The translations under genes and the position numbers were made by a program. Shown here piece after piece: positions 17,304 to 51,509 of a stretch of 64,000 nt of DNA (the stretch's first letter is position 1; each line of letters begins with the position of its first letter). The DNA is taken from positions 1-64,000 of the forward strand of contig NZ_RXHS01000013.1 in assembly GCF_004138125.1 (NCBI RefSeq), in the 5' to 3' direction. The DNA is from Seramator thermalis (lineage in GTDB: Bacteria > Bacteroidota > Bacteroidia > Bacteroidales > Dysgonomonadaceae). The notes beneath the pieces were generated by a model. It saw only the letters and a list, made by a program, of their open reading frames with translations, made no database searches and was not told where the DNA came from.

Positions 17304-20300
17304 TTAATTGAATATATATCTCAATCCTAATTGCAATTTCCACGTCTCACCATAATAGTAATTTGTTGTGAAAGTTTGAGTCGGATATACATTATTACCG
17401 TCTTTATCTTTTATTTTCACAAAAGAAAATGTAGGTACGTTCGATGCATCTTTTCCTTCATATTTGAGAATGGCTCCGCCATTGGCCGACGACATATTTT
17501 TAGAAATACCCCATTCACTATTAAGCAAATTGCCAAAGTTGAGAATATCTACCGTAAATTGTAACGTATTGGCCGAATTCCCTGCTTTTACCTTGAAATC
17601 TTGAGCAAACCTCAAATCGAAATTATGTACCCACGGAGCCATAACAGAATTAGCTCCTGCATATTCTCCTTTATGCTTTTTCAGATATTTATCCTGACTC
17701 ATAAATTTGAAAAATGCATCTTCATCCTCCGTCGTCTTAAATTTTATATCACCTTTAGCCTTTGGGATATAAATCAGATCAGTATTATATGTATCGCCAT
17801 TCATATCGTTTGAGTATGTAAAGCTATATTCTCTCGGAGACGCGCCTGAATAAAAAATACTGATTGACGATGCCAAATGATCATTGGCATAAGGAATACG
17901 ATAAGAAACAGACCCGATAACCTTGTGAGGAACTACATACTGCGAACGTTGAAGAGAAGGAAGATGTGGCCCGTTGATAGCCAAAAGGCCACCATAAGCC
18001 GAACCGGCATTACTTCCAGGCATTCCTGTAATTTCTCTCGATTCGGTAATAGTATAAGCCGCCATCAAATTCAGCCTTTTAACGGGTTCAGCCGTTACGG
18101 TGATATTTCCGATAGCGCCCCAACCATCAGTATTATTGCTTAACACAAAAGCGTTTCTCGATTGATATCGGTAATTTGCGGGATAAATATATCTGTTATC
18201 GGGCCCCGAAAAACGTTGCCAAGTTTCGTCCACAGGTTTTAAACTGTAATTCTTAAGCATTACGCTGTAGATACTTTTAGTAAAGATGCCTTCTACGGTC
18301 ACGGCCATTGGGAATGAAAATGGCAACTGATAATCAACGGCCAACGAAGTTTTAAATATCTGAGGCATTCTGAAATCCGGATCAATTCCTGCTATTTCGC
18401 TCGGAAGTGCTCCATCTTCGGGTGAAATTGTTTTTTTCAATCCCAATTTGTCAATCATTTCATTGACATCGGTAATCATCGGTCCGGCCAAAGTTGCCAA
18501 GATTGGATCAGACTTGTCTATCATCCCATTTTTGTAGGTTGTAACTGCTCTGAAACTCCCCTGCACCATGCCCGAGTTGGTAGGCATATTGGTAAAAAAT
18601 ACCAAAGGTAACCTTCCGGTAAACACACCTAAACCTCCACGGAGTTTCAAGGACTGATCACCTTTCAGATCCCAAGTGAAACCGACACGGGGGGAAAGAA
18701 GTACTTTGGCATCAGGCCATTTGCCGGTATCTATTTTTTTCCCGCCAAAATCCAAATCATAAATGGCATTGTTGCGAATAAGATTATCAACGTAAGTAAT
18801 ATAATCGGCACGAAGTCCATAAGTTACTTTTGCATTCTCAGAAACACTGAATTCATCCTGCACATAAGCCCCAAACTGATGAAAAGCAACTTCTGCGGCA
18901 GGTTTTTCCTCACCATTGTAACCATAAGTAAGTGCAAAATCAATAGGAGCTGCTTGATTCAGAAAATCGTCAATACTTGCATATCTATAATAGCCCGTGC
19001 CATTTCGCATGTAGGCATTATTAGCCATCTGATATTCGTAACTTAATCCTGCAGTAATTTTATGATTGTTTAAATAGTAGGTGAAGTTATCGATTGCAGT
19101 GATCACCTCATTATTAACTCCATTATTCCATGTAAAGAGTTCATATCCTGCCGAAATATATGGTTCTACGATAGGAACCCCATTTGCATCTCGTCCGGCA
19201 AGAATATCGATAAATGGGAACTTGGCAGAATTAGAACCTCTTACATCTTCTATTTTGGAGTAAGTCGTGATAAACTGATTTGAAATCTTATCTGAGAAGC
19301 GACTGTTTAATTCACCCGAGAATGTATTCACAATGTTGTCCATCGAATACAGAGAATTGGAGAAGGCCATTCCGTACTGAGAAATACGGTCATAACCCGT
19401 TATTCTGTTCCTGTATCCGGCATCCGTAGAATTCCCGTTAGTAGGATTCCATGCTTCGTTTTTTGTATAATTATAGCGTAAACTGAGTTTGTTTTTAGTA
19501 TTAATGTTCCAGTCGATGCGGGCTAACAGTTTCATATTGGTTTCATCTCCGGGATAATCTGTATAAGATCCCGGATCGTAACCATAATTTTCGAGGAGAT
19601 GATTTTTTACTCTCTCCATATCTGCGACACTTACACGCGAAAGAGACTTATCGGGATCGGCAACTCCGTTTGGAGAAGGACGCCAAGTGACTACTTGGCC
19701 CGGCCTTTTTTCATACTCACCATTAACAAAAAAGAACAATTTGTTTTTGATGATGGGACCGCCCAATGTCATACCATAAATTTCTTTCGATTCTTCGGCT
19801 CTTTCTCCAAAATCTATATCACCAATTTTGTTTCCTCTCAAATCCTGATTATAATAGTAAGTATATGCCGATCCTTTAAAAGTGTTTGTTCCCGATTTCG
19901 TAATAGCATTGATGCCTCCACCGATAAAGTTGGTTTGACGAACATCATACGGAGCAACAACAACCTGAACTTCTTCGATTGCATCCAACGAGATTGGATT
20001 TCCACCTCCCGGCAAGCGATCGCTTAACCCAAAATTATTGTTGAAATTAGCACCATCGATGGTGAAGTTTGTACTGCGTCCGTCTCCGGCAGCAATACTC
20101 ATCCCCGAAGCATAAGGCGATAATTTGGCAATGTCTGTTATGCTTCTGGTCATCTTTGGCATATTTTCGATTTGTGAAGTCGAAACATTGGTGGATGCAC
20201 CCGTTTTTTCGCTCGAAAACCGAGTTCGCTGAGCTGATACCACTACTTCGCCAAGCGTAACCGCCTCTTCGCGGAGTTCTACATTCAGGGCATAAGTTTC

Positions 20301-37266: not shown

Positions 37267-37282
37267 GGGAGGAAATACTATG
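37267..37282 (+). promoter_or_regulatory. Strong Shine-Dalgarno site before the NrfD-like gene
   Basis: GGGAGGAAATACTATG contains a full GGAGG with seven bases to the start codon. Other genes in the window show no such site, as expected for the phylum. Confidence 0.7.
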
Positions 37283-38212
37283 TGGACAATAACACCAAGC
37301 ATTATTGAAAACGAACGGCCGGTGGACCGATTTGCTCTGCACTATGTCCCGCAAACCCATTGGCGCATTTGGCATGCCATTTGGTTTTGGGCGATGGGCA
37401 TCGGAAGCGGAGTTTTTTGTTTAAGGCAGTTTTTAGGGTTCAGCGGAGGCGGACTATTTTTGGGAATGAATGCCATTGATATCGTCGGATTGGTTTTGGT
37501 CGGCATCGGTGGAATTATTCTGATTCTCGATTTGGGAAAGCCTTTCCGATTTTTAAATTCATTACTCAAGCCTAAAAATGCATGGATTTCGCGAGGAGCC
37601 ATTTCGGACTTTGTATTTCTCGGAATTGGCGTTCTTTACGTCCTTCCCGGTCTGATTCCTTCGCTCCCCTGGTCGGATGCGGTATTTTCAGAAGCCGATG
37701 CTTTCAGTCGGATTCTCATCGTTCTGGCCATTTTCTTTGCTTTCATCATTATGATTTATCCCGGATTTGTGCTTTATTATTCTAAAAACATTCCTTTTTG
37801 GAACAGCATTCTAACGCCGGTATTGTTTTTTGAATTAGCTCTTACCAGCAGCTTCGGATTGTTGGGATTGATGGGAGCTTTGAATGGAGATTATCTTCCC
37901 GAAATTTTCTACATTTCGTTTATTACAACTCTTGTGGTGACGCTTGCAACGACTGTTCTTTATATTTTTGAACGAAAAAGTGTCGGGAATCCGTGCATCG
38001 AAGAATCCATTCGTTGTTTGTTGAAAGGGAAAGCCGCCGGATGGTTTTGGCTTTCGCAAATAATAGGGATCGTTGTTCCTATTCTGTTGTTGGCAACAAG
38101 AAGTGATGAATTTACCGTTCTGCTTTGGAGCGGCATCTGCACCATACTGGGGAGTTTTATGTTCCGATACAGTCAATTGATTGCCGGTTATCGCGTTTCA
38201 CCTTTAATTTAA
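37280..38212 (+). CDS. NrfD/PsrC-type membrane quinol subunit of a molybdopterin oxidoreductase
   Basis: An integral membrane protein (310 aa, about eight or nine helices) of the NrfD/PsrC family, which exchanges electrons with the quinone pool for molybdoenzymes of the polysulfide/thiosulfate/DMSO reductase type. The family signature LDLGKPFRFLNSLLKPKNAW followed by SRGAI is present at about 90-115. It is first in an operon with the catalytic and iron-sulfur subunits (gaps of 21 and 3 bases). The gene order membrane-catalytic-FeS is not the usual A-B-C order of psr/phs operons. Confidence 0.9.
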   Translation: MWTITPSIIENERPVDRFALHYVPQTHWRIWHAIWFWAMGIGSGVFCLRQFLGFSGGGLFLGMNAIDIVGLVLVGIGGIILILDLGKPFRFLNSLLKPKNAWISRGAISDFVFLGIGVLYVLPGLIPSLPWSDAVFSEADAFSRILIVLAIFFAFIIMIYPGFVLYYSKNIPFWNSILTPVLFFELALTSSFGLLGLMGALNGDYLPEIFYISFITTLVVTLATTVLYIFERKSVGNPCIEESIRCLLKGKAAGWFWLSQIIGIVVPILLLATRSDEFTVLLWSGICTILGSFMFRYSQLIAGYRVSPLI

Positions 38213-38233: not shown

Positions 38234-40651
38234 ATGAGTACAGAAATAAAAAAATTCTCGGCATGCGTTCCCAATTGTTGGATGAACTGCCGATTATATG
38301 CTCACGTTCGAGACGGAAAACTGGTTCAGACATCGGCCGCTCCTTTTCCCGATCCTTCCTACAATCGTATTTGCCTGCGAGGATTATCACACCCTCAGCG
38401 TGTCAACAGCAAAGACCGTATCCTTCACCCGATGAAACGAGTGGGCAAACGTGGCGAAAACAAATTCGAACAAATTACTTGGGACGAAGCCATCGATATT
38501 TTGGCCGACAATTTAAATAAAATCAAAGAAAAATACGGGTCAAAAGCCGTTGCATTTTTACCCTGGTCGGGTAGCTATGCAGCCATAAATGGCGGTATGC
38601 CCGGCGCCATCAAACGCTTTGCCAACCTTTTTGAAGGAACTGTCGTGGTAGATGGTGTCGATTTCGGAATGCCCACAGGTATGTCGCAAGTCGTGGCCAA
38701 TATGGCCGGCGGAATGGCGTCCCTTTTTTTGGGTCCCGAACCGAAAGATTTGAGCTATGCCAAAACCATCATCTTTTGGGGTACAAACATTACCGACTCA
38801 CAAGTGCACAACTGGCACTTCGTGCTCGATGCAATGGAGAATGGGGCAAAACTGATTTGCATTGATCCCCGTTACAGCGAAACGGCTGCCAAATCGCACG
38901 AGTGGGTTCGCGTTCGTCCGGGATCTGATTCCATTTTGGCTTTATCGATGATTCAGGTAATTATCGAAGAGAACCTGATTGATCGAGATTATTGCATTAA
39001 ACACACCGTTGCACCCTTCCTTGTTCGTCAGGACAACGGACTTTTCCTGCGTCAAAGCGATATCGACGGAAGCGATAATGCCGGATATCTGACAATGGAT
39101 GCCGATTCGAATAAACTTATAGCATTGGAAACGGTTGCAAATCCTGCCTTATTGGGCACTTTCGACGTTACCCTGCATGACGGATCAAAATTGCAGGTGA
39201 AAACGGCTTTGCAAATGCTGAAAGATGAAGCGGACAAATACAAACCGGCTGAAGCCGAAAGATTGACACTTGTCCCTGCCGATAAAATTGTAGAAATTGC
39301 TCGAATTTATGCAACAAATACCCCTTCAACCATCTATACAGGATTTGGGGTTGATCGATGGGATAATGCGGACCAAGTTGGTCGAGGCATTGCAACATTG
39401 GGTGTCATCACCGGTCAAATAGCCAAAAAAGGAGCCTCTCCTCTCGGTGCAATGGGACAAAGTGCTTTACAGTTTACCATATCGGATGCCGTAATGGGCC
39501 CGTGGACTTCACCTTCAGGCACAATGGCCGAATTGTTGAATTTCGTATTGCTGCAACAGGCTATTCTTACCGGAAAAGTAAATATGTGGGAGCCCAAAGA
39601 TCCGGCCAATCCTCTTGCCGGACCAACCGGTAAAGAGCCGGTTCCGAAAGATTGGCCTATCAAAGGTTTGATCTTGACTACCGGCAATATGGTGAGCAAT
39701 CATGCCGAACAAAAAGTTACCATCGATGAGATGTTCAGCGAAGATAAACTCGATTTTATTTGCTGCATCGATATGTTCATGACCGATACGGCTCGACAGG
39801 CCGATTTGTTCCTTCCTTGCACCAGCTGGTTCGAAAACGACGATATCGTAGGCGGACTTCATCCTTACGTCATGCGCATGGAGAAAGCCATTGAACCGAT
39901 GGGTGAAAGTAAAGGCGATTGGGATATTTTCAAGCTGTTAGCTCAAAAAATGGGTTGGGGCGAATATTTCAAGGGAGATGCAAAAGATCAAATCGATGGA
40001 ATCCTCGATGTATTGGGCAATCTTTTTGGAGATCATAAAGATAGGATATTAAAAGAGTTTAAGGAAAACGGAATAGCCCGGCTTTCCGATCCGAATGCGC
40101 TTCCATTTGCTGATGGCGTATTCTATACGCGAACAGGCAGGGCCGAATTTTATTCGGAAGGTGTGGCAACTGTATTCCCCAAAAGTATGCCTGCATTGCA
40201 GTTGCCTGTCAACGAAGGTCATAATCCATTGCCTCATTTTGTGCCACCAGCAGAAGCATGGATTGATAATCCGCTGATAAAAAAATATCCGCTCGCCTTA
40301 GCTACACTCCATACAAAATGGCGTGTGCATACTACTTTTTATGACGTTCCGGCATTACGGGAAATGGATCCCGAACCAGTGGTCTATCTCAATCAAAAGG
40401 AATCGAGTAAAAGAGGGCTTAAAGATGGCGATTACGTTACCGTATTCAACGACCGTGGTCATTGCGTTGTACGACTCGTGGTGGACGATTCCATCAACGA
40501 CGGAGGTGCAGCAATTCCCAAAGGTTGGCAGCGTCATCAATTCAAAGAAGGTGGATACCAGGAATTAACTAAAAATCATATCAATACGGTTCACTACGGC
40601 ATGTCGTTTTTCGATGCCTTGGTAGAAGTGAAAAAATGGGAAGGGAAATAA
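38234..40651 (+). CDS. Molybdopterin oxidoreductase catalytic subunit (PsrA/PhsA/DmsA-like)
   Basis: A bis-molybdopterin guanine dinucleotide enzyme of the DMSO-reductase superfamily (805 aa). The N-terminal 4Fe-4S site is CVPNCWMNC (Cys11, 15, 19) with a fourth Cys in RICLRG near residue 47. Cofactor-binding stretches follow: FWGTNITDSQVHNWH, CIDPRYSETAAKSHEWVRVRPGSD and a C-terminal dinucleotide-binding domain (FNDRGHCVVRLVVDD, IPKGWQRHQF). There is no twin-arginine signal peptide: the protein begins directly with the cluster domain. The molybdenum ligand cannot be assigned safely; the matching loop reads GVDFGMPTGMS (about 141-151). Substrate is unknown. Confidence 0.92.
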   Translation: MSTEIKKFSACVPNCWMNCRLYAHVRDGKLVQTSAAPFPDPSYNRICLRGLSHPQRVNSKDRILHPMKRVGKRGENKFEQITWDEAIDILADNLNKIKEKYGSKAVAFLPWSGSYAAINGGMPGAIKRFANLFEGTVVVDGVDFGMPTGMSQVVANMAGGMASLFLGPEPKDLSYAKTIIFWGTNITDSQVHNWHFVLDAMENGAKLICIDPRYSETAAKSHEWVRVRPGSDSILALSMIQVIIEENLIDRDYCIKHTVAPFLVRQDNGLFLRQSDIDGSDNAGYLTMDADSNKLIALETVANPALLGTFDVTLHDGSKLQVKTALQMLKDEADKYKPAEAERLTLVPADKIVEIARIYATNTPSTIYTGFGVDRWDNADQVGRGIATLGVITGQIAKKGASPLGAMGQSALQFTISDAVMGPWTSPSGTMAELLNFVLLQQAILTGKVNMWEPKDPANPLAGPTGKEPVPKDWPIKGLILTTGNMVSNHAEQKVTIDEMFSEDKLDFICCIDMFMTDTARQADLFLPCTSWFENDDIVGGLHPYVMRMEKAIEPMGESKGDWDIFKLLAQKMGWGEYFKGDAKDQIDGILDVLGNLFGDHKDRILKEFKENGIARLSDPNALPFADGVFYTRTGRAEFYSEGVATVFPKSMPALQLPVNEGHNPLPHFVPPAEAWIDNPLIKKYPLALATLHTKWRVHTTFYDVPALREMDPEPVVYLNQKESSKRGLKDGDYVTVFNDRGHCVVRLVVDDSINDGGAAIPKGWQRHQFKEGGYQELTKNHINTVHYGMSFFDALVEVKKWEGK

Positions 40652-40654
40652 ATT

Positions 40655-41341
40655 ATGGCAAATAAAAATAAGAAAAAACATTGGGGAATGGTGATTGACC
40701 TGACCCGCTGTGTGGGATGTCAGACCTGTGCGGTTGCTTGTAAGATAAAAAACAATTTGGCGGATGGTTTGTGGTGGAACAGGGTAATCACAGTGGGCGG
40801 CAACCACATTGATACCGCGGGGGGTACATACACTCACCCCATGCGCTATTCCATCCCGTTGAATTGTCAGAATTGCGAAAACCCGATATGTGTTGATGTT
40901 TGCCCGACAGGAGCTTCTTATCAGAGAGAAGAAGACAATCTTGTTCTGATCGATTACGACAAGTGTATTGGATGTCGGGCTTGCGTTGAAGCATGTCCGT
41001 ATGGTGTACGTCTGCCAAACCTTAAAGAGCCCCAATATGAGCATTACGATGTTCAACTCGGTTCGGATGAGGTCACGCCAAGATATCAGGGTGTAGTGGA
41101 AAAATGTACGTTTTGTGTGGAACGTATCGATCAGGGATTGAATCCTTTCTGCATTGATGTTTGTCCGGAACGTGCACGTTATTTTGGCGATTTAAACGAT
41201 GAGGACAGTGATGTTTCGAAACTCATCCGCGAGAATCCGGTTGAAACACTTCATCCGGAATTGGGAACGAAACCGAGCGTTTACTTCATTCCGCCAAACA
41301 AGAAAAAAACAACGCGTACAGGATTGGATTACATAAAATGA
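40655..41341 (+). CDS. Four-cluster ferredoxin subunit (PsrB/DmsB-like)
   Basis: The electron-transfer subunit (228 aa) between the membrane and catalytic subunits. It carries four ferredoxin-type cysteine groups: CVGCQTCAVAC, CQNCENPICVDVC, CIGCRACVEAC and CTFCVERIDQG followed by CIDVC, enough for four 4Fe-4S clusters as in DmsB/PsrB. The first gene after the catalytic subunit, with only 3 bases between. A C-terminal tail (KKKTTRTGLDYIK) has no obvious role. Confidence 0.94.
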   Translation: MANKNKKKHWGMVIDLTRCVGCQTCAVACKIKNNLADGLWWNRVITVGGNHIDTAGGTYTHPMRYSIPLNCQNCENPICVDVCPTGASYQREEDNLVLIDYDKCIGCRACVEACPYGVRLPNLKEPQYEHYDVQLGSDEVTPRYQGVVEKCTFCVERIDQGLNPFCIDVCPERARYFGDLNDEDSDVSKLIRENPVETLHPELGTKPSVYFIPPNKKKTTRTGLDYIK

Positions 41342-41413
41342 ATTGTGTACCGGATTGAACGATCGATCAATTGTTCTCATTCAAATTTTTTGATTGATCC
41401 TCGAAGAGAGCGT

Positions 41414-41827
41414 ATGGTATATCTTCACGATTTACCATACGTATCTTTCGATTATAATATCGGTCATCCTTTTAGTCCTCTTATACAAGTGAATGATCCT
41501 TATAAAATAGAAATCAAATTCTGGATTTCATACAACGGGAAATCGCTTCTCGGCAAAGGAAGGATGCAGCTGCTTCGACAAATCGATCGATATGGCTCGC
41601 TTCGACAAGCAGCCGAAGAACTCAATCTTTCTTATCGAAAAGCATATTACATGATCTATTCGATGAACAAAACTGCCGAACAACCAATAGTGGAAATGAA
41701 ACGGGGCGGAAAAAACGGAGGTTTGTCAGAATTGACACCTTACGGGAAATGGTTAATTCTGGAATTTGATAAAATTGAAAAACAATTAGATCAATTTATT
41801 CATTCCATCAACTTGACAACAGAATAA
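41414..41827 (+). CDS. Stand-alone ModE-type winged-helix regulator
   Basis: The 137-residue product (if it starts at Met 41414; a GTG at 41345 would add 23 residues) matches the N-terminal DNA-binding domain of ModE, the molybdate-responsive regulator: LLGKGRMQLLRQIDRYGSLRQAAEELNLSYRKAYYMI with the wing KRGGKNGGLSELTPYG. The molybdate-binding Mop domains of E. coli ModE are absent, which is common for ModE-like proteins in some phyla. It lies 3-72 bases after the FeS subunit and 56 bases before the TonB receptor, next to a palindrome that resembles a ModE site. Confidence 0.85.
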   Translation: MVYLHDLPYVSFDYNIGHPFSPLIQVNDPYKIEIKFWISYNGKSLLGKGRMQLLRQIDRYGSLRQAAEELNLSYRKAYYMIYSMNKTAEQPIVEMKRGGKNGGLSELTPYGKWLILEFDKIEKQLDQFIHSINLTTE

Positions 41828-41883: not shown

Positions 41884-43848
41884 ATGAGGAGAGCAAATTT
41901 AACTTTACTGTTTACTTGTTTAATCTTGCGTGTCTTAAACGCAGAAGAGATAGATACAACTAAAATCTCGAATACCTTTCAACTGGGTGAAATCATTGTA
42001 CTTGCACCGAGAACAAACAATACAGTCAGCCAAACTCTGAATCTGCAAATGAACAATATAAATGTGAGTGAAGCTTTGAGATCTGTTCCGTCGGTGATTT
42101 TCGCCAACATGGGAGGGCGCTTCGAGCCAACAATTATCGTTCGGGGATTCGATATCAGAGGTATTCCCGTTTTCGTGGATGGTATTCCGCTGCAAATGCC
42201 TTACGACGGAGATATCGATTTGGGGCAACTCTCCACGTTCGATTATTCTCAAGTCTCGCTTACGAAAGGAATCGCACCGATGTCGCTCGGGCCCAACACC
42301 ATCGGAGGAAGCATCAACCTTGTAAGTTTTCAACCTACCGACAAAGTGGATGTGCAAGCTATAACCGGATGGGGGAGCGGCAACACTTACGAATATGGGA
42401 TAAATGCCGGAAGCAGAGGGGAAAAGTTCTTTGTGCAGGGGAGTTATTACGAACGCCACACCGACTATTTTATGCTATCGCATAGCTACCAACCTACAAC
42501 CTATCAGTCTGACAGAAAGAGGGATAATTCTTATTCGGATTTCCGGAAAGTAAATCTGAAAATCGGATACATTGCTGCACCGGATCAGGAGTTCACCCTC
42601 AACTATCAATATCAGAACAATGCAAAAGGAAATCCGCCATACAGTGGTATCGATGACAAGCAATCGACCCGATTTTGGCAATGGCCCGTATGGGAAAGAC
42701 AAAGTTTGTATTTCATTTCGAAAAACAAAATAAACGCAAACAACGATATCAAGACAAGTATTTACACAGACAAATTTTACAATGTGATGAAAAGCTACGA
42801 CGACCAATCGTACACCACGCAGAGTAAGAAATATGCCTTTACAAGCATATACAATGATCGAAATTTAGGTGGAAATGTGATTCTGTCAAATACGTCCGTA
42901 ACAAACAATCAACTGAATTTTTCGGTTCAGATCAATCGAAACGAACACAAATCGCACAACGAAGGGAATCCGCAGCTGACCAACAGCGATTTTGTGTGGA
43001 GTGCGGGATTGGACGATCGGTATTTGATAAACGAAAAATGGTCATTGACCGGAGGATTGTCTTATGCTCGACAAAAAAGTCTGAAAGAAGAAGATCAAGT
43101 TACAGATGAAGGAATTACCGAATTTCCCCAAAATTCGCATCAGGCAGTGAACGCGCAACTATCGGCCAACTGGATAGCTACCCAACAATTTTCGATGTCG
43201 GCTTACGTAGCTCGAAAAACTCGGTTTGCCACGCTCAAAGAACGCTATTCGTACAAGATGGGACAAGGACTCCCGAACCCCGATCTGCAACCCGAGAAAG
43301 CCACACATATCGATATTTCGCTCCAATACGGAGTGTCAAAAAACTTGTCGTTCAACAGTTCAATGTACTATATTCGTCTGCACGATGTCATTCAATCCGT
43401 AGATGGCATAGAGGGAAATCTGACTCAGATACAAAATGCCGGAGAAGCCCGCTTCAGTGGATTTGATGTGAGTTTGCACTATTTGATTCTGAAAAATTTG
43501 GATTTAACAACCTCCTACTCTTTTATCATTCAAAAAAACAAGACAAATCCTGAATTGCGATTCACGGATGTTCCCAAACACAAAGCATGGAGCAATCTGT
43601 CGTACCAACCGACAAATTGGGCAAAAGTAAGCCTTACTCACGAATACTATTCCCGCCGATACAGCCGTTCCTACGGCATCACGGCCGACGAATTTCATCT
43701 GTTCAATCTGCAGGGTTCACTTTCTTGGAAACAATTCACTCTTTATACAGGGATAAAAAACCTTTTCGACACAAACTATGCTTATGCCGAAGGGTATCCC
43801 GAAGCAGGAAGAAATTATTTTACGAAACTTGTATTCGAACTAAATTAA
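41884..43848 (+). CDS. TonB-dependent receptor in the molybdenum locus
   Basis: A 654-residue outer-membrane receptor. A signal peptide (about 1-20, ends LNA) is followed directly by the plug (GEIIVLAPRTNN, ALRSVPSVIFANMGGRFEPTIIVRG, VFVDGIPLQMPYDGDIDL) and a 22-strand barrel ending in KLVFELN. No carboxypeptidase-like domain precedes the plug, so it is of the siderophore/cofactor type rather than the SusC or Oar types. The ligand is unknown; the neighbours (ModE-like regulator, NTPase fusion, mobA) make a molybdenum or tungsten species the best guess. It lies 24 bases before the fusion gene, probably the same transcript. Confidence 0.9.
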   Translation: MRRANLTLLFTCLILRVLNAEEIDTTKISNTFQLGEIIVLAPRTNNTVSQTLNLQMNNINVSEALRSVPSVIFANMGGRFEPTIIVRGFDIRGIPVFVDGIPLQMPYDGDIDLGQLSTFDYSQVSLTKGIAPMSLGPNTIGGSINLVSFQPTDKVDVQAITGWGSGNTYEYGINAGSRGEKFFVQGSYYERHTDYFMLSHSYQPTTYQSDRKRDNSYSDFRKVNLKIGYIAAPDQEFTLNYQYQNNAKGNPPYSGIDDKQSTRFWQWPVWERQSLYFISKNKINANNDIKTSIYTDKFYNVMKSYDDQSYTTQSKKYAFTSIYNDRNLGGNVILSNTSVTNNQLNFSVQINRNEHKSHNEGNPQLTNSDFVWSAGLDDRYLINEKWSLTGGLSYARQKSLKEEDQVTDEGITEFPQNSHQAVNAQLSANWIATQQFSMSAYVARKTRFATLKERYSYKMGQGLPNPDLQPEKATHIDISLQYGVSKNLSFNSSMYYIRLHDVIQSVDGIEGNLTQIQNAGEARFSGFDVSLHYLILKNLDLTTSYSFIIQKNKTNPELRFTDVPKHKAWSNLSYQPTNWAKVSLTHEYYSRRYSRSYGITADEFHLFNLQGSLSWKQFTLYTGIKNLFDTNYAYAEGYPEAGRNYFTKLVFELN

Positions 43849-43872: not shown

Positions 43873-45588
43873 ATGCCAACAAAAACAACTCTGAATGAAC
43901 AATGGATCAAAGCATCCATCATCGGTTCGATGTGGGCTTCGGTTGAGATCGTGTGGGGCAGTTTTCTGCATAACCTCAGGGTGCCACTCAGCGGACACAT
44001 CCTGACCGCCATTGGATTGATCATTCTTATATCGGCAAGCTACCGATGGAAAGAAAAGGGTTTGTTTTGGCGTGCAGGCATTATCTGTGCCTTGCTGAAA
44101 ACAATGTCGCCAAGTGCAGTGATTTTTGGACCAATGATTGCCATCTTGTGCGAAGCATTGTTGCTCGAGGCATCAGTCAGATTGTTAGGGAAAAACCGAA
44201 TTGGACTGATAATCGGTGCCATTCTGGCTATGTCGTGGAATTTGGTGCAAGCTATCTTCAGCAAAATAATCGCTTACGGATACAATCTGGTAAAACTTTA
44301 CGAAAGCATCATGTTGTATGCCCAAAAACAATTACACACCGACATTGATCTGGTTTGGGCTCCTATCGTTTTGTTGCTGGTCGTGTATGTTTTGTTGGGT
44401 TTAGGTACTGCCATTGCCGGTATCTTCATCGGGCAACGCCTCGAATCGTCCGATTTGAAACCACAGATGTTTGCAGAAAAAAACAATAACAATCTTCCAT
44501 TCGCAGCCAAATATTCTCAATTTCCTTTCGCGACCGCATGGTTGATTTTCGACATATTGGCAATCGTTGCCGTACTTACAACAGCCAATTTTATACCCCT
44601 CGAATTTTGGTTTGGTTTGAGCATTGCCATCGTTGCAAGCTGGATAATGCATTATAAATCAGCTTTGCGCCGACTGGCGCAACCCCGTTTGTGGATTTCG
44701 TTTTTCATCATCACGGTGATTGCAGCCGTATCCTTTTCGCGGTTTCAAGGCAATATATCGCTATGGGAAGGAGCACTGATAGGACTCGAAATGAATGTAC
44801 GGGCAATAGTAGTCGTTATCGGTTTTTCAGTTATTGGGACTGAACTCTATAGCCCGAAAGTCAAAAAAATATTCCAACGAGAATCTCTCGTTTCTCTTTA
44901 TACAGCGCTCGACTTGTCCGTTGAAAGCTTACCGAATATGATCACTTTGGTACCTAACTTGAAAAAGATTTTTAGTAATCCCATCGACATTGTTCGTAAT
45001 TTTTTGTCGTATGCCGAGTACAGAATGCATGAAATAGAAGCTCGACAACACCAACTTGCATCCATAGCAATCGTGACAGGGGAAAAAGGAAGCGGCAAAA
45101 CCCGTTTTATGAGCGAAACTGCAACTGAACTGAAAAAACGAGGCTTTGATGTAGGGGGTGTTTATACAAGAAAAATTATCGATAACGGGGAGATTACAGC
45201 CTATAGTGCCGTAAATATATCAAACTGCGAAGAACGGTCTTTTTTGAAAAAAAACAGTGAAGATTTGGGATTGAGAATCGGTGCCTTTTCCATTGACCCT
45301 GAAGGATTAGAGTTTGGGCGAAAAGCTATTGCACATGCTTCACAGGCAAACTTATTGATGATTGACGAGATAGGAAAATTAGAACTCGATGGAGGTGGTT
45401 GGTACGACGAATTAAGGTCACTTCCGCTCGAAAAGGAGCTGTTTATTATATTGTCCGTACGCCTTGAATTTTTATATGACGTCATCCATAAATGGAATCT
45501 GTATCCTTCGGTGATTTACAACGTATCCGAATCCAAACCCGAAAAATTGATAAGCGAGATTGAGTCTTATTTTGAATATGAAAAGTAA
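43873..45588 (+). CDS. Membrane transporter-like protein fused to a THEP1-type NTPase
   Basis: A 571-residue three-part protein that I do not find under one familiar name. Residues about 5-200 hold six hydrophobic helices, in the style of an ECF transporter substrate-binding S component (VPLSGHILTAIGL). Residues about 225-390 hold more helices and a cytoplasmic amphipathic part (MNVRAIVVVIGFSVIGTE, LYTALDLSVESLPNMI), like an EcfT/CbiQ coupling subunit; both comparisons are by topology only. From about 398 there is a clear THEP1/NTPase_1 nucleotide-binding domain: Walker A GEKGSGKT (403-410), GGVYTRKI, and Walker B LLMIDEIGKLEL (Asp498, Glu499). It could energise import of the receptor ligand. 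Its 3' end overlaps mobB by 22 bases. Confidence 0.8.
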   Translation: MPTKTTLNEQWIKASIIGSMWASVEIVWGSFLHNLRVPLSGHILTAIGLIILISASYRWKEKGLFWRAGIICALLKTMSPSAVIFGPMIAILCEALLLEASVRLLGKNRIGLIIGAILAMSWNLVQAIFSKIIAYGYNLVKLYESIMLYAQKQLHTDIDLVWAPIVLLLVVYVLLGLGTAIAGIFIGQRLESSDLKPQMFAEKNNNNLPFAAKYSQFPFATAWLIFDILAIVAVLTTANFIPLEFWFGLSIAIVASWIMHYKSALRRLAQPRLWISFFIITVIAAVSFSRFQGNISLWEGALIGLEMNVRAIVVVIGFSVIGTELYSPKVKKIFQRESLVSLYTALDLSVESLPNMITLVPNLKKIFSNPIDIVRNFLSYAEYRMHEIEARQHQLASIAIVTGEKGSGKTRFMSETATELKKRGFDVGGVYTRKIIDNGEITAYSAVNISNCEERSFLKKNSEDLGLRIGAFSIDPEGLEFGRKAIAHASQANLLMIDEIGKLELDGGGWYDELRSLPLEKELFIILSVRLEFLYDVIHKWNLYPSVIYNVSESKPEKLISEIESYFEYEK

Positions 45589-46130
45589 AATTGCCCGTTT
45601 TTGAACTGTAATCGGTTGATCCACTCTAACTGGACATCACGACTCTGATCGAAATAAAAAATTTTATCGGCAATATGTAAATATTGATCTACCTCTTTTG
45701 GGGGTCCCCAAGTAGGTATTCGCATCATCATCACGAAAATTCCGGGAACAATCACATCGCGTAGTCCGCGACTTTCGCACACCAATGGTTGTCCATGATC
45801 GTATTTCGCGCGAAACTCTTCAAAAGCCCGTTGTAGATATCCTTCAGTTGCACGAACATACACCACTTTATGCGCTCCGGATTGAAGCATCAGGGAAGTA
45901 TCTTTTGAAGAATCATCATCCGCCTCTTCCATAATGGAATATCCGGAAAATTCGCTTTCACTTCGATGATTGCCATGCATTTCCTTCTCGGCAGGATGAA
46001 TGCGCGTAAGTTTGAAAGCAGTTACCTCAAAATCGGAGGAGAACTTTCGAATTACATCGCAAGCTAAAGTGGTTTTGCCGGAATGTCGTGAATTGCCGCC
46101 AACAAGAAACAGATTAGGAACAGAAAGCAT
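45567..46130 (-). CDS. MobB-like P-loop protein
   Basis: A 187-residue P-loop protein with GGNSRHSGKTTLA at about 11-23. The P-loop start, the size and its place 15 bases behind mobA suggest MobB, the small GTP-binding partner of the molybdopterin-guanine dinucleotide pathway, but the later part (HPAEKEMHGNHRSESEFSGY, LVCESRGLRDVIVPG) is not a close MobB match, so only the family type is claimed. It is convergent with the NTPase-fusion gene and overlaps it by 22 bases. Confidence 0.65.
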   Translation of the reverse strand: MLSVPNLFLVGGNSRHSGKTTLACDVIRKFSSDFEVTAFKLTRIHPAEKEMHGNHRSESEFSGYSIMEEADDDSSKDTSLMLQSGAHKVVYVRATEGYLQRAFEEFRAKYDHGQPLVCESRGLRDVIVPGIFVMMMRIPTWGPPKEVDQYLHIADKIFYFDQSRDVQLEWINRLQFKNGQFYFSYSK

Positions 46131-46145
46131 TTGATGAATTGTTTT

Positions 46146-46748
46146 TTAAAGTTTTTTATCTTCTATATATTGGAGGGCAAACTTATAATCATCGAGAGTA
46201 TTTATATTGAAAAACAAATGACGATCATAAAACGTACTCCTATTGTCAATTTCTACAGCAGCATAGCCTAATCGATCAACGGCATCGTGCATCTTGTAGC
46301 AGCCCTTTTCTATCAATTCGGCAAAGGTTTCCGCACAACTTTTTCGATAAATTGCACAAAGAGGTTCAATTCTATTTCCGTCATGCACCGGCAGGGCACA
46401 TGAAGAGTTCCCGATATGTTGCAATAATAAAACAAACAAAGCTGATGGAACAAATGGCGTATCGCACGACAAAAAAACATTAAATTCCGTTACAGATTGC
46501 CGAAGGCATGAATAGATTCCACCCATTGGGCCGATATCGCGAAATACATCTTTCACGACAGGATGCGAAAATTGAGCGTACGCAGAATCATTGGCACTGA
46601 TCATTGTTTGCTCGGCGACTTCATCAAGCGTTTCGAGAGCATGCAGCACCAAAGGTTTTCGATCGAGTAACAGCATACCCTTATCGGTGCCCATTCGTGA
46701 GCTCTTACCCCCTGTCAAAATAAAACCACTGATATCCTTTCTATTCAT
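46146..46748 (-). CDS. mobA: Molybdenum cofactor guanylyltransferase MobA
   Basis: Transfers GMP from GTP to molybdopterin to give the guanine dinucleotide cofactor needed by DMSO-reductase-family enzymes such as the one encoded 5 kb away. The nucleotide-binding start GFILTGGKSSRMGTDKG is at about 8-24, the FLSCDTPFV metal site near 93-101 and the GNRIEPLCAIY block near 125. Length (200 aa) is normal. It is first in a two-gene unit with the MobB-like gene, transcribed towards the NTPase fusion. Confidence 0.93.
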   Translation of the reverse strand: MNRKDISGFILTGGKSSRMGTDKGMLLLDRKPLVLHALETLDEVAEQTMISANDSAYAQFSHPVVKDVFRDIGPMGGIYSCLRQSVTEFNVFLSCDTPFVPSALFVLLLQHIGNSSCALPVHDGNRIEPLCAIYRKSCAETFAELIEKGCYKMHDAVDRLGYAAVEIDNRSTFYDRHLFFNINTLDDYKFALQYIEDKKL

Positions 46749-48202: not shown

Positions 48203-48534
48203 GGATGGAGTATCGGGATAGTTGCTCGGCTATTTTTTCTTCATACTTTATCGAGATGCTTGGCGGGCAGCGGCAGACCTAAGAGATGCCGTTTTGATCT
48301 TCGCAATCGGGATCATCATTGTGTTTCCCTTTTTCATTCCCCTCAATGTAGCCGCAGGGGATGCAATTTTTTGATGACGGGCGCTTGTATTGCCATTTTT
48401 TTTGTATATTTGTAAGTTATTATAATTTGTACCGTTGCGTTATCTATTGCAATTGATTATGCAAATATACGTCGCACTATCGACATAAAAAATATTTGGA
48501 TGCATTATCGACGTATTTAATATTGTTTAAATAT
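48203..48534. other. Left part of the tRNA-Pro element: non-coding with gene debris
   Basis: About 330 bases without an intact gene. A short open stretch at about 48279-48377 would encode a hydrophobic peptide (AIGIIIVFPFFIPLNVAAG), possibly debris of a membrane protein. The last 70 bases hold the operator-like repeats of the next gene. Confidence 0.4.
48466..48516. promoter_or_regulatory. Three operator-like repeats before the repressor gene
   Basis: Three copies of a TATCGACGTA-type half-site: TATACGTCG (48466-48474, reversed), TATCGACATA (48478-48487) and TATCGACGTAT (48506-48516). They lie 19-69 bases before the start of the repressor-like gene, which suggests self-repression. Confidence 0.5.
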
Positions 48535-49236
48535 ATGGGGAATAAAACAAATTATTCCGATTGGGAACAAACAACTATTAATGAGCGCATTAAGTACATT
48601 GTTGATCATTTTTTTAAGGGCAATACAACGCAGATGGCGAAAGCTGTTTTTGTAAAACAATCTACTCTTAGGGATATTGTTGGTGAGCGAAATAGCACTC
48701 CGTCTTTCGATACAATAAAGCAAATTGTCGATTCTGCGTCCCTTAATATTAATCCGGAATGGCTCCTTACAGGGAAGGGTGAAATATTAAAATCTGACAA
48801 TTCTGTAAAAATATTTGTCCCCGAAGATCTACCCAAGCAGGTTGGCAGGTTGTACCGTGCCCCAATTTATGAATCATATCCGGTAAGCGCAGGACTTCAC
48901 GGATTGGCTGCAATCAGAGACGATAAGCCCGACGGATACGCATACACCACCATGCCGGGAGTTACTTTCTTTCCGGTTATCGGATGCAGTTTCGAGCCGA
49001 TTATCTATGCCGGCGAATATATAGGGGTGGTTAAGCTGAATTCATGGGATAGAGTGGATACCGAGAAGATCTATTTCATCATCACCAAAGAAGAGAGGAT
49101 GCTCAAAAGATTAAAGGTCGACAAAGACAGGGAAGACATATTGTGGTGTGTGTCTCCGAATTTTAGCGAGTTCAGCATTTTAAAATCGGATATCATTGAA
49201 ATTAATCATGTATTCTTTTATGGTAAAATGATTTAA
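48535..49236 (+). CDS. LexA/CI-like repressor with S24 peptidase domain
   Basis: A 233-residue regulator typical of phages and integrative elements of Bacteroidetes. The N-terminal third is a helix-turn-helix (TQMAKAVFVKQSTLRDIVGERNSTPSF, then INPEWLLTGKGEI). The C-terminal half is an S24/LexA-like domain with Ser in GCSFEP and a Lys-rich strand KEERMLKRLK that may hold the catalytic Lys. I start at the Met of MGNKTNYSDW (48535), since the earlier in-frame Met at 48496 would lie inside the operator-like repeats. If the domain is active, DNA damage could induce the element. Confidence 0.82.
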   Translation: MGNKTNYSDWEQTTINERIKYIVDHFFKGNTTQMAKAVFVKQSTLRDIVGERNSTPSFDTIKQIVDSASLNINPEWLLTGKGEILKSDNSVKIFVPEDLPKQVGRLYRAPIYESYPVSAGLHGLAAIRDDKPDGYAYTTMPGVTFFPVIGCSFEPIIYAGEYIGVVKLNSWDRVDTEKIYFIITKEERMLKRLKVDKDREDILWCVSPNFSEFSILKSDIIEINHVFFYGKMI

Positions 49237-50188: not shown

Positions 50189-50401
50189 ATGCTGCTCGTT
50201 GAATCAATAAAGCGGTATGCCGGCAGGCTCAAAACCGACAAGGCATTGCTAAGCTATCTCGACACTGAAGACTTGGTTGCCAAGTATGATCCTGGCGTGA
50301 CGGTGGATGACGTTACGGATGAATGGCTTTCTGGGTTTAAAGGGTATGCAGGGGGAAGGCATGTAAGGAACGTGAGGAAGGTGCTGAATCAGCGAATGTA
50401 A
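50189..50401 (+). pseudogene. Tyrosine-recombinase core-binding domain fragment
   Basis: A 70-codon open frame. Its second half (VTVDDVTDEWLSGFKGYAGG followed by RHVRNVRKVLNQ) resembles the SAM-like core-binding domain of Bacteroides tyrosine recombinases, and even parallels the integrase on the opposite strand (ITVTWLQRFYDSL ... HMRNIRAVINFA). There is no Arm domain before it or catalytic domain after it. It runs tail-to-tail into the other integrase, overlapping its last 13 bases. Confidence 0.55.
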
Positions 50402-51509
50402 TCCAGAACCTTCCTGTTCGCCTGATCAACTTTTTTCAGATTAAAGTTCACGTACACTGATGTCACTCTCGATCCATACTCATGGCCCAGCGCTTCGGAG
50501 ATAATATCCCTCGTGATGTCTATACCTGCGGCTATCGATGCCCAGGTGTGTCGTGCATGATAAGTTGTCAGGTCCTGGCAGATAATCCCTGCGTCGTCCC
50601 TCATCATCTTCAACGCATAGTTTATACCCCTTTTAAAACCGTCGTAGTTTTTATACATCCTCAAGAAGGATACGAGCAGTTCGTCATCTGGATATCTGTC
50701 GATGATCGCTTGTGCTTCCGGTTCAATCTTGACAGAATAATGCTTGCCGGTCTTCATCCTGGTATATTCCAACCGTCCGTTCTTGACGCTTGTTTTTTTT
50801 GCGTGTAGGAGATCAGTCAGATTAATGCCGATAAGGTAGAAGGATAATATGAAACAATCGCTGAACGGCTTCCATTTGCCCTGATAGTCTCTCACACGTC
50901 TCAAGTCCTCAACGGATAGATCCCGGTGCTTGGTTTTTTCTTTGAGTATTTTGAATTTCCTGAAAGGGTAGTTCCGGGTATATTCTCTGTCGATTGCGAA
51001 GTTGATCACTGCCCGTATGTTTCTCATGTGGATTGCTTTCGTATTTACGGCCAGATCCAGTGAATCGTAAAATCGCTGCAACCATGTTACCGTGATATCA
51101 TCCAGGAGTGGATCATCCGTAATTTTTCTCATGGTCTCATCGTACAATCGCTTCGTATTCCCGTGTTTCGTATCGATAAATTCCCGGAAGACGCTTCGTA
51201 AAGTGTGTGTAGGTAATACGTCCTTGCTCAGATATGAACGGAGCTGAGCATCTGTTAGCGATAGTAGGACTCCATCCAATTCGAGAGACAACAGGATCTT
51301 GTCTATTTGCATCTTTTTGTTATTGATTGCCGCATCTTCGCCCTACTGTTCGCACCCTTAGTGATTTGCCTTCCTTTCCATTCAGATGCCAGACAGGAGA
51401 TCCCGGTATTAATCATGAACCTTGATCGATGAGTTATCATAATTTTAATTGGATATTCACCGTTATCTTTACGTCTTCTTTTATCTAAATACAATATTGA
51501 ACTTGCCAT
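50389..51509 (-). pseudogene. Tyrosine-recombinase integrase, frameshifted
   Basis: The integrase of the element, in two frames. The N-terminal Arm DNA-binding part (SSILYLDKRRRKDNGEYPIK, ITHRSRFMINTGISCLASEW) runs from 51509 to about 51340. The SAM-like and catalytic parts (from KILLSLELDG on, Met at 51312) are in another frame. Reading on in that frame upstream gives DAAINNKKMQID, so one missing base near 51338-51342 (ANSRA / DAAINN) explains the break. Catalytic residues: ARHTWA, GHEYG and the Tyr in SVYVNF. The first catalytic Arg position reads GIN (YLIGINLTDL), as in a known subgroup. Repaired length would be about 375 residues. Confidence 0.85.

Follow-up and report, generated by a model that had tools for sequence, protein, structure and literature searches.

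A membrane-protein fusion with a THEP1 NTPase, proposed to take part in molybdenum cofactor salvage in Bacteroidota

Introduction

Several described systems come close to the locus reported here. ECF transporters have the same general plan together with predicted micronutrient uptake. The ModABC transporter with its regulator ModE likewise serves molybdoenzymes, and a ModE-type regulator is also found in the present locus. In vitamin B12 uptake and cobinamide salvage, BtuB-BtuFCD likewise combines a TonB receptor, an inner-membrane system and a guanylyltransferase that acts after import. Caenorhabditis elegans takes up the finished molybdenum cofactor of other organisms from its diet, by a membrane passage that has been called unknown (PMC9793310). 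In the literature searched, with subscription papers and preprints outside the search, no molybdenum-cofactor transporter is named, and nothing specific was found on THEP1 with ECF transporters or on molybdopterin uptake; one paper speculates that another class of outer-membrane protein might act in molybdopterin uptake.

The THEP1 family (NTPase_1, PF03266), which includes Aquifex aq_1292 (1ye8) and human HCR-NTPase (2i3b), consists in its known members of soluble, single-domain proteins. The Aquifex enzyme hydrolyzes ATP and GTP very slowly, at 5-9e-3 per second (PMC1079890). Here we describe a THEP1 domain at the end of a membrane protein, encoded in a 64,000-nucleotide stretch of Seramator thermalis DNA (the window), and propose that this protein probably supplies the inner-membrane and cytosolic components of a molybdenum cofactor salvage system.

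Results

Operon and layout of the fusion gene

The fusion gene is an intact open reading frame with an ATG start codon, which closes a tight run of plus-strand genes encoding a molybdoenzyme, a regulator and a TonB receptor. The features of the locus are as follows.

37280..38212, plus strand: NrfD-type membrane anchor of the molybdoenzyme (PF03916)
38234..40651, plus strand: molybdopterin oxidoreductase catalytic subunit, 805 aa (PF00384, PF01568)
40655..41341, plus strand: 4Fe-4S ferredoxin subunit of the molybdoenzyme (profile searches)
41345..41827, plus strand: ModE-type winged-helix regulator (TIGR00637, 2.4e-23, below its curated cut-off)
41884..43848, plus strand: TonB-dependent receptor, 654 aa, predicted outer-membrane partner (PF07715)
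43873..45588, plus strand: S-T-N fusion protein, 571 aa (open reading frame, profile search and relatives)
43873..44448, plus strand: S module, residues 1-192 (model, conservation, stand-alone gene in loci L082-L090)
44509..45048, plus strand: T module, residues 213-392 (model; stand-alone gene in L082, L083, L084, L085, L087, L088 and L090)
45058..45585, plus strand: THEP1/NTPase_1 domain (N), residues 396-571 (PF03266; fold match to 1ye8 and 2i3b)
45079..45102, plus strand: Walker A, GEKGSGKT, residues 403-410 (translation; present in 42/46 N domains)
45364..45369, plus strand: Walker B, DE, residues 498-499, within the THEP1 signature DEIGxxEL
45567..46130, minus strand: MobB-like P-loop protein, weak match, tail to tail with the fusion gene
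46146..46748, minus strand: MobA, molybdenum cofactor guanylyltransferase (TIGR02665, 1.7e-36, 126 bits against a cut-off of 151.85; PF12804)

The spacer between the TonB-receptor gene and the fusion gene is 24 nt. The operon's oxidoreductase is the only Molydop_binding match in the host genome (G000), which is 99.97% complete. In other lineages, the TonB receptors that adjoin the system are related to the window's receptor over their full length, with 25-42% identity. The ModE-type regulator, which lacks a molybdate-binding domain, has an additional N-terminal stretch of ~65 residues, and its relatives adjoin the system in L030, L034 and L115. The MobB-like gene overlaps the 3' end of the fusion gene by 22 bp and, among the loci compared, occurs in the host genus only. 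Further downstream, a tyrosine-recombinase-like gene (50389-51312, minus strand) and an S24-type repressor-like gene (48496-49236, plus strand), both recognized by eye, are possibly remains of a mobile element.

Two membrane modules form a family new to the databases

Residues 1-393 gave no Pfam or NCBIfam match in profile searches. A model of these residues, built with 53 relatives, reached a pLDDT of 90.3 and a pTM of 0.88. In this model, the helices of residues 9-192 make up the S module, and four membrane helices spanning residues 221-325 make up the membrane part of the T module; behind them, short helices of amphipathic or polar character (residues 328-392) run into the NTPase domain. 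Across the family, the S residues W21, E25, G29, H33, P38, G41, K76, G136 and G176 are near-invariant, of which W21, E25, H33 and K76, situated in the S helices, are candidate binding residues. The last membrane helix of the T module carries a near-invariant M-x-x-R-A motif.

The preliminary description had recognized two membrane halves, an S-component-like and an EcfT-like one. The division into two modules holds, but no resemblance of either to its proposed counterpart was detected. An internal duplication was considered as well, and no relationship between S and T was found. In a full-length model built from 11 sequences, the membrane matches (ABC exporters and MFS) were spurious, with RMSD values >20 and TM <0.2, and only the NTPase match was usable. 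Neither Pfam, NCBIfam nor the PDB contains this membrane family.

The NTPase domain belongs to the THEP1 family

Residues 400-563 match NTPase_1/THEP1 (PF03266) with 66.4 bits against a cut-off of 23.9, and the top Foldseek matches of the modelled domain are 2i3b and 1ye8 (E values of 8e-6 and 2e-5, TMt of 0.72-0.73), which identify it as the THEP1 variation of the RecA fold. It scored 13.7 bits with the MobB profile PF03205, below the cut-off of 26.6. The earlier assignment to a genuine, non-ABC THEP1-type NTPase is thus confirmed by profile and fold, as are the Walker A and Walker B positions given with it. A hydrophobic stretch followed by DE, the Walker B pattern, is present in 43/46 N domains, and DExGxxE in 42/46. 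Walker A and B are kept in 42-43 of the 46 N domains, and the window's NTPase retains the ASCE catalytic glutamate; NTP hydrolysis by the domain is predicted.

Relatives carry the three modules in several arrangements

S-T-N fusions, searched for in part with the window protein as the single query, occur in L030-L039, L047, L080, L081 and L112-L128 in addition to the window. They share 28-92% identity and come from many independently assembled genomes, which rules out a chance or assembly fusion. An S-T protein is accompanied by a separate N gene in L097 and in L044-L046, where N-MobA-ST operons adjoin narGHJI. N-S-T fusions were found in L089, L091-L093 and L095; in L082-L090, S and T are separate genes with a TonB receptor behind them, in some cases along with N. 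The stand-alone modules have about 200 aa (S) and about 180 aa (T).

The S-module tree sets the N-S-T fusions off from the S-T-N fusions as a single clade (100/100), so the NTPase has been joined to the membrane protein in two orders. This repeated joining, together with the separate-gene versions, indicates that S, T and N function together. Two further points of the preliminary description hold: three modules on one chain, each of which exists as a separate gene in relatives, and an NTPase tied to a transport-like membrane part. A T gene was not detected near S and N in L041, L129 and L130; the S match is weak in L129 (1.2e-4) and L130 (0.0076), and the motif WGxxEAxxGxxLH is present in both. 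The genome of L085 has a second, diverged S-module gene (17888-18469) without a T gene alongside.

Elsewhere, the enzyme partners are NarGHJI, DMSO-reductase-type or xanthine-dehydrogenase types, and the adjoining cofactor gene suits the enzyme. MobA stands by bis-MGD enzymes and adjoins the system in the window, L032, L042, L044-L046, L086, L098 and L129; MocA/XdhC types stand by xanthine-dehydrogenase types and adjoin it in L041, L116 and L119. The cofactor genes retained near the system thus encode steps later than Mo-molybdopterin, which is where the MobA step lies. In many fusion loci, a molybdenum gene is absent from the available stretch. A DUF364/DUF4213 gene lies directly upstream of the fusion gene in L034 (10344-11153), L035 (5987-6796), L115 (823-1635) and L121 (9205-10008); a published DUF364 structure suggested a pterin- or flavin-like ligand, and DUF364 has been reported close to molybdate and tungstate transporters.

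The system accompanies molybdoenzymes in genomes without cofactor synthesis

Despite its molybdoenzyme, the host genome gave no match for MoaA, MoaC, MoaE or MoeA in profile searches, and none whatsoever for ModB. Since MoaA is scored weakly by the profile PF06463 in this order, its absence is weaker evidence than the absence of MoaC and MoeA. This molybdenum context and the absent cofactor synthesis had been missed when the fusion was read as a transporter-like NTPase protein.

Among 31 genomes of the host family, the system is present in 11/11 with a molybdopterin oxidoreductase and in 0/20 without (P = 1.2e-8; the Fisher tests used here and below ignore shared descent), or in 9/11 if S-T matches alone are counted (P = 2.7e-6). 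Contrasts between genomes with and without it are found within four genera (g3, g6, g10 and g11). Among 50 relatives, all 16 genomes that have the enzyme but lack MoaC carry the system, and both genomes with the enzyme and without the system have MoaC. Across a phylum sample of 395 genomes, the system was found in 13/17 genomes with the enzyme and without MoaC versus 5/149 with both (P = 2.5e-12), at an enzyme cut-off of 1e-12 for PF01568 that was chosen after the list had been seen and at which G284, with the system beside an oxidoreductase, drops out. The PF01568 matches thereby excluded, from 1e-4 to about 1e-10 and mostly in open reading frames of about 1000 aa, we interpret as alternative complex III subunits. 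Of the four exceptions in the phylum, three come from one family in which the other members have MoaC, and two of these three are incomplete. Altogether, the system is linked to molybdoenzymes without cofactor synthesis. Its genes and those of the molybdoenzyme often share one operon, and part of this co-occurrence is therefore co-inheritance.

Most carriers lack MoaA, MoaC, MoaE and MoeA together. Some also make the cofactor (G041, G057, G059, G076, G122, G179, G208 and G248), of which G208, G122, G248, G179 and G076 have MoaA and MoaC; in such genomes the system may be redundant or serve a different substrate. G041, G057 and G059 are the cofactor-making carriers among the relatives, and the same three have a strong ModB-like permease (133-143 bits); ModB itself scores above its cut-off in four relatives, none of them a carrier. 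In G055, which lacks MoaC, MoaA and MoaE, genes for MoeA and a MogA-type protein lie directly behind the fusion gene, as if metal-free molybdopterin were imported and the metal added by the organism itself. Two single genomes depart from the pattern. For G421, which has a molybdopterin oxidoreductase but no MoaC, the system was not detected; G048 carries the system and gave no Molydop_binding (bis-MGD enzyme) match.

Discussion

A proposed route for cofactor salvage

Where a genome has molybdoenzymes and the last nucleotidyl-transfer step of cofactor synthesis and none of the earlier steps, molybdopterin or the finished cofactor must come from outside. Since the TonB receptor and the S-T-N proteins are the only system here that tracks the enzyme without synthesis, we propose import through the receptor and S. 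The TonB receptor would bring the finished cofactor, as Mo-molybdopterin or a nucleotide form, through the outer membrane; in some species, the cargo may be metal-free molybdopterin instead. The S module, whose membrane helices contain conserved polar residues, would then bind the cofactor and carry it through the inner membrane. The least certain step is the third, in which T would couple S to the THEP1 NTPase, and ATP or GTP hydrolysis would power release or block return; the NTPase may also pass the cofactor onward. MobA, a neighbour of the fusion gene, would finally add GMP to give bis-MGD for the operon's oxidoreductase, a step at which the adjoining MocA/XdhC-type protein would replace MobA for a xanthine-dehydrogenase-type enzyme. 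A slow turnover like that of Aquifex THEP1 is compatible with such a role, as a trace cofactor requires few turnovers. The free cofactor is considered unstable and salvage presupposes a source of it, which counts against the proposal, as do the carriers that make their own cofactor, the fusion loci without a molybdenum gene, the missing T gene in L129 and L130, and the exceptions G421 and G048.

The strongest competing view keeps transport as proposed and assigns the NTPase a different part, that of a cytosolic MobB-like adaptor, or a processing enzyme, receiving the cofactor from S for delivery to MobA. We regard this as a reasonable though less probable reading. N is tied to MobA in the N-MobA-S-T operons of L044-L046 and, as a P-loop protein, weakly resembles MobB; in three loci S and N were found with no T detected, and the slow Aquifex enzyme would suit an adaptor as well. 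However, the position of N directly behind the amphipathic end of T, or ahead of S, suits a role in a membrane cycle; the ASCE-type catalytic glutamate is retained, and the window has a separate MobB-like gene too.

It is unlikely that the fusion is a derived ECF transporter, with the THEP1 NTPase in place of the EcfA ABC ATPases. The order and size of the modules do recall an S-component plus EcfT, including the four membrane helices of T and the cytosolic amphipathic helices behind them, and the substrate is of the micronutrient type. However, the ECF S and EcfT kinship suggested in the preliminary description found no support. The T profile aligned to CbiQ with an hhalign probability of 0.1%, compared to 95.7% for a held-out CbiQ against the same small profile, and the S profile to CbiM with 0.2%. 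Against PDB sequences, the S profile found nothing at E ≤ 10, thus no solved S-component, and the T profile neither EcfT nor any other transporter. T also lacks the second EcfT coupling motif and the final membrane helix. Foldseek placed nothing in the PDB at E ≤ 0.001 beside the S+T model; by this search the modelled structure showed no relation to ECF proteins, an outcome that the preliminary description had named as speaking against its reading. The genomes agree: a CbiQ gene is absent from every system-bearing genome among 61 relatives, and PF09819 (ABC_cobalt) from the host genome. A motif scan, which left a few more distant loci outside, found no ABC ATPase gene adjoining the system except one of Pst type in L091. 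As judged from sequence, the fusion would resemble ECF transporters in outline only, with a substrate module, a second membrane module with cytosolic helices and an NTPase, and would fall outside that family. Transport stays the best reading, on grounds other than ECF kinship.

Import of molybdate or tungstate in place of ModABC, with the cofactor made by unrecognized enzymes, appears improbable. It would fit the ModE-like regulator within the operon, the reports of DUF364 by molybdate and tungstate transporters and the absence of ModB above its cut-off from the carriers among the relatives, and it would benefit those carriers that make their own cofactor. Molybdate would, however, be useless to most carriers with their missing synthesis genes; the three cofactor-making carriers among the relatives are the very ones with a strong ModB-like permease, and the ModE-like protein has no molybdate-binding domain. 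Least credible is a membrane sensor or a maturation factor that inserts the cofactor into the molybdoenzyme: the shared operon with enzyme and regulator would suit it, and maturation factors can contain NTPase domains, but the system accompanies unrelated enzyme classes (NarG, DMSO-reductase type and xanthine-dehydrogenase type), a TonB receptor comes along, and the cofactor supply of genomes without synthesis would be left unexplained.

If cofactor salvage is correct, many of the Bacteroidota that have nitrate reductase or another molybdoenzyme would be cofactor auxotrophs supplied by their neighbours, on whom their respiration of nitrate or sulfur compounds would rely, and the molybdenum cofactor would be a shared nutrient of microbial communities, as vitamin B12 is. 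The THEP1 family, its human member included, would gain a cellular setting, and current databases would be missing one more membrane family. The question is open to direct testing in a cultured species, as Seramator thermalis m5, which is in culture, shares this operon (L109).

Comparison with known systems

In the resources used, no precedent is known for the membrane family, for its combination with THEP1 or for the predicted cargo. The chances are about even that a TonB receptor, together with a new membrane family powered by a non-ABC THEP1 NTPase, here makes up the first system dedicated to uptake of the molybdenum cofactor or molybdopterin. The domain shares sequence, fold, Walker A and DEIGxxEL with THEP1 proteins; unlike their soluble forms, it is part of a membrane protein, or is encoded alongside one, in molybdenum loci. 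Compared to ECF transporters, no relation of either membrane module by sequence or fold was detected, the NTPase is not of the ABC type, and a TonB receptor is the partner. In contrast to ModABC, the locus has no periplasmic binding protein and no ModB or ModC, and most carriers could not turn molybdate into cofactor. BtuB-BtuFCD differs in that BtuFCD-type proteins have no part here and the predicted cargo is the molybdenum cofactor. With the uptake in C. elegans, the proposed system would share the use of finished cofactor made by others, there by an animal and here by bacteria.
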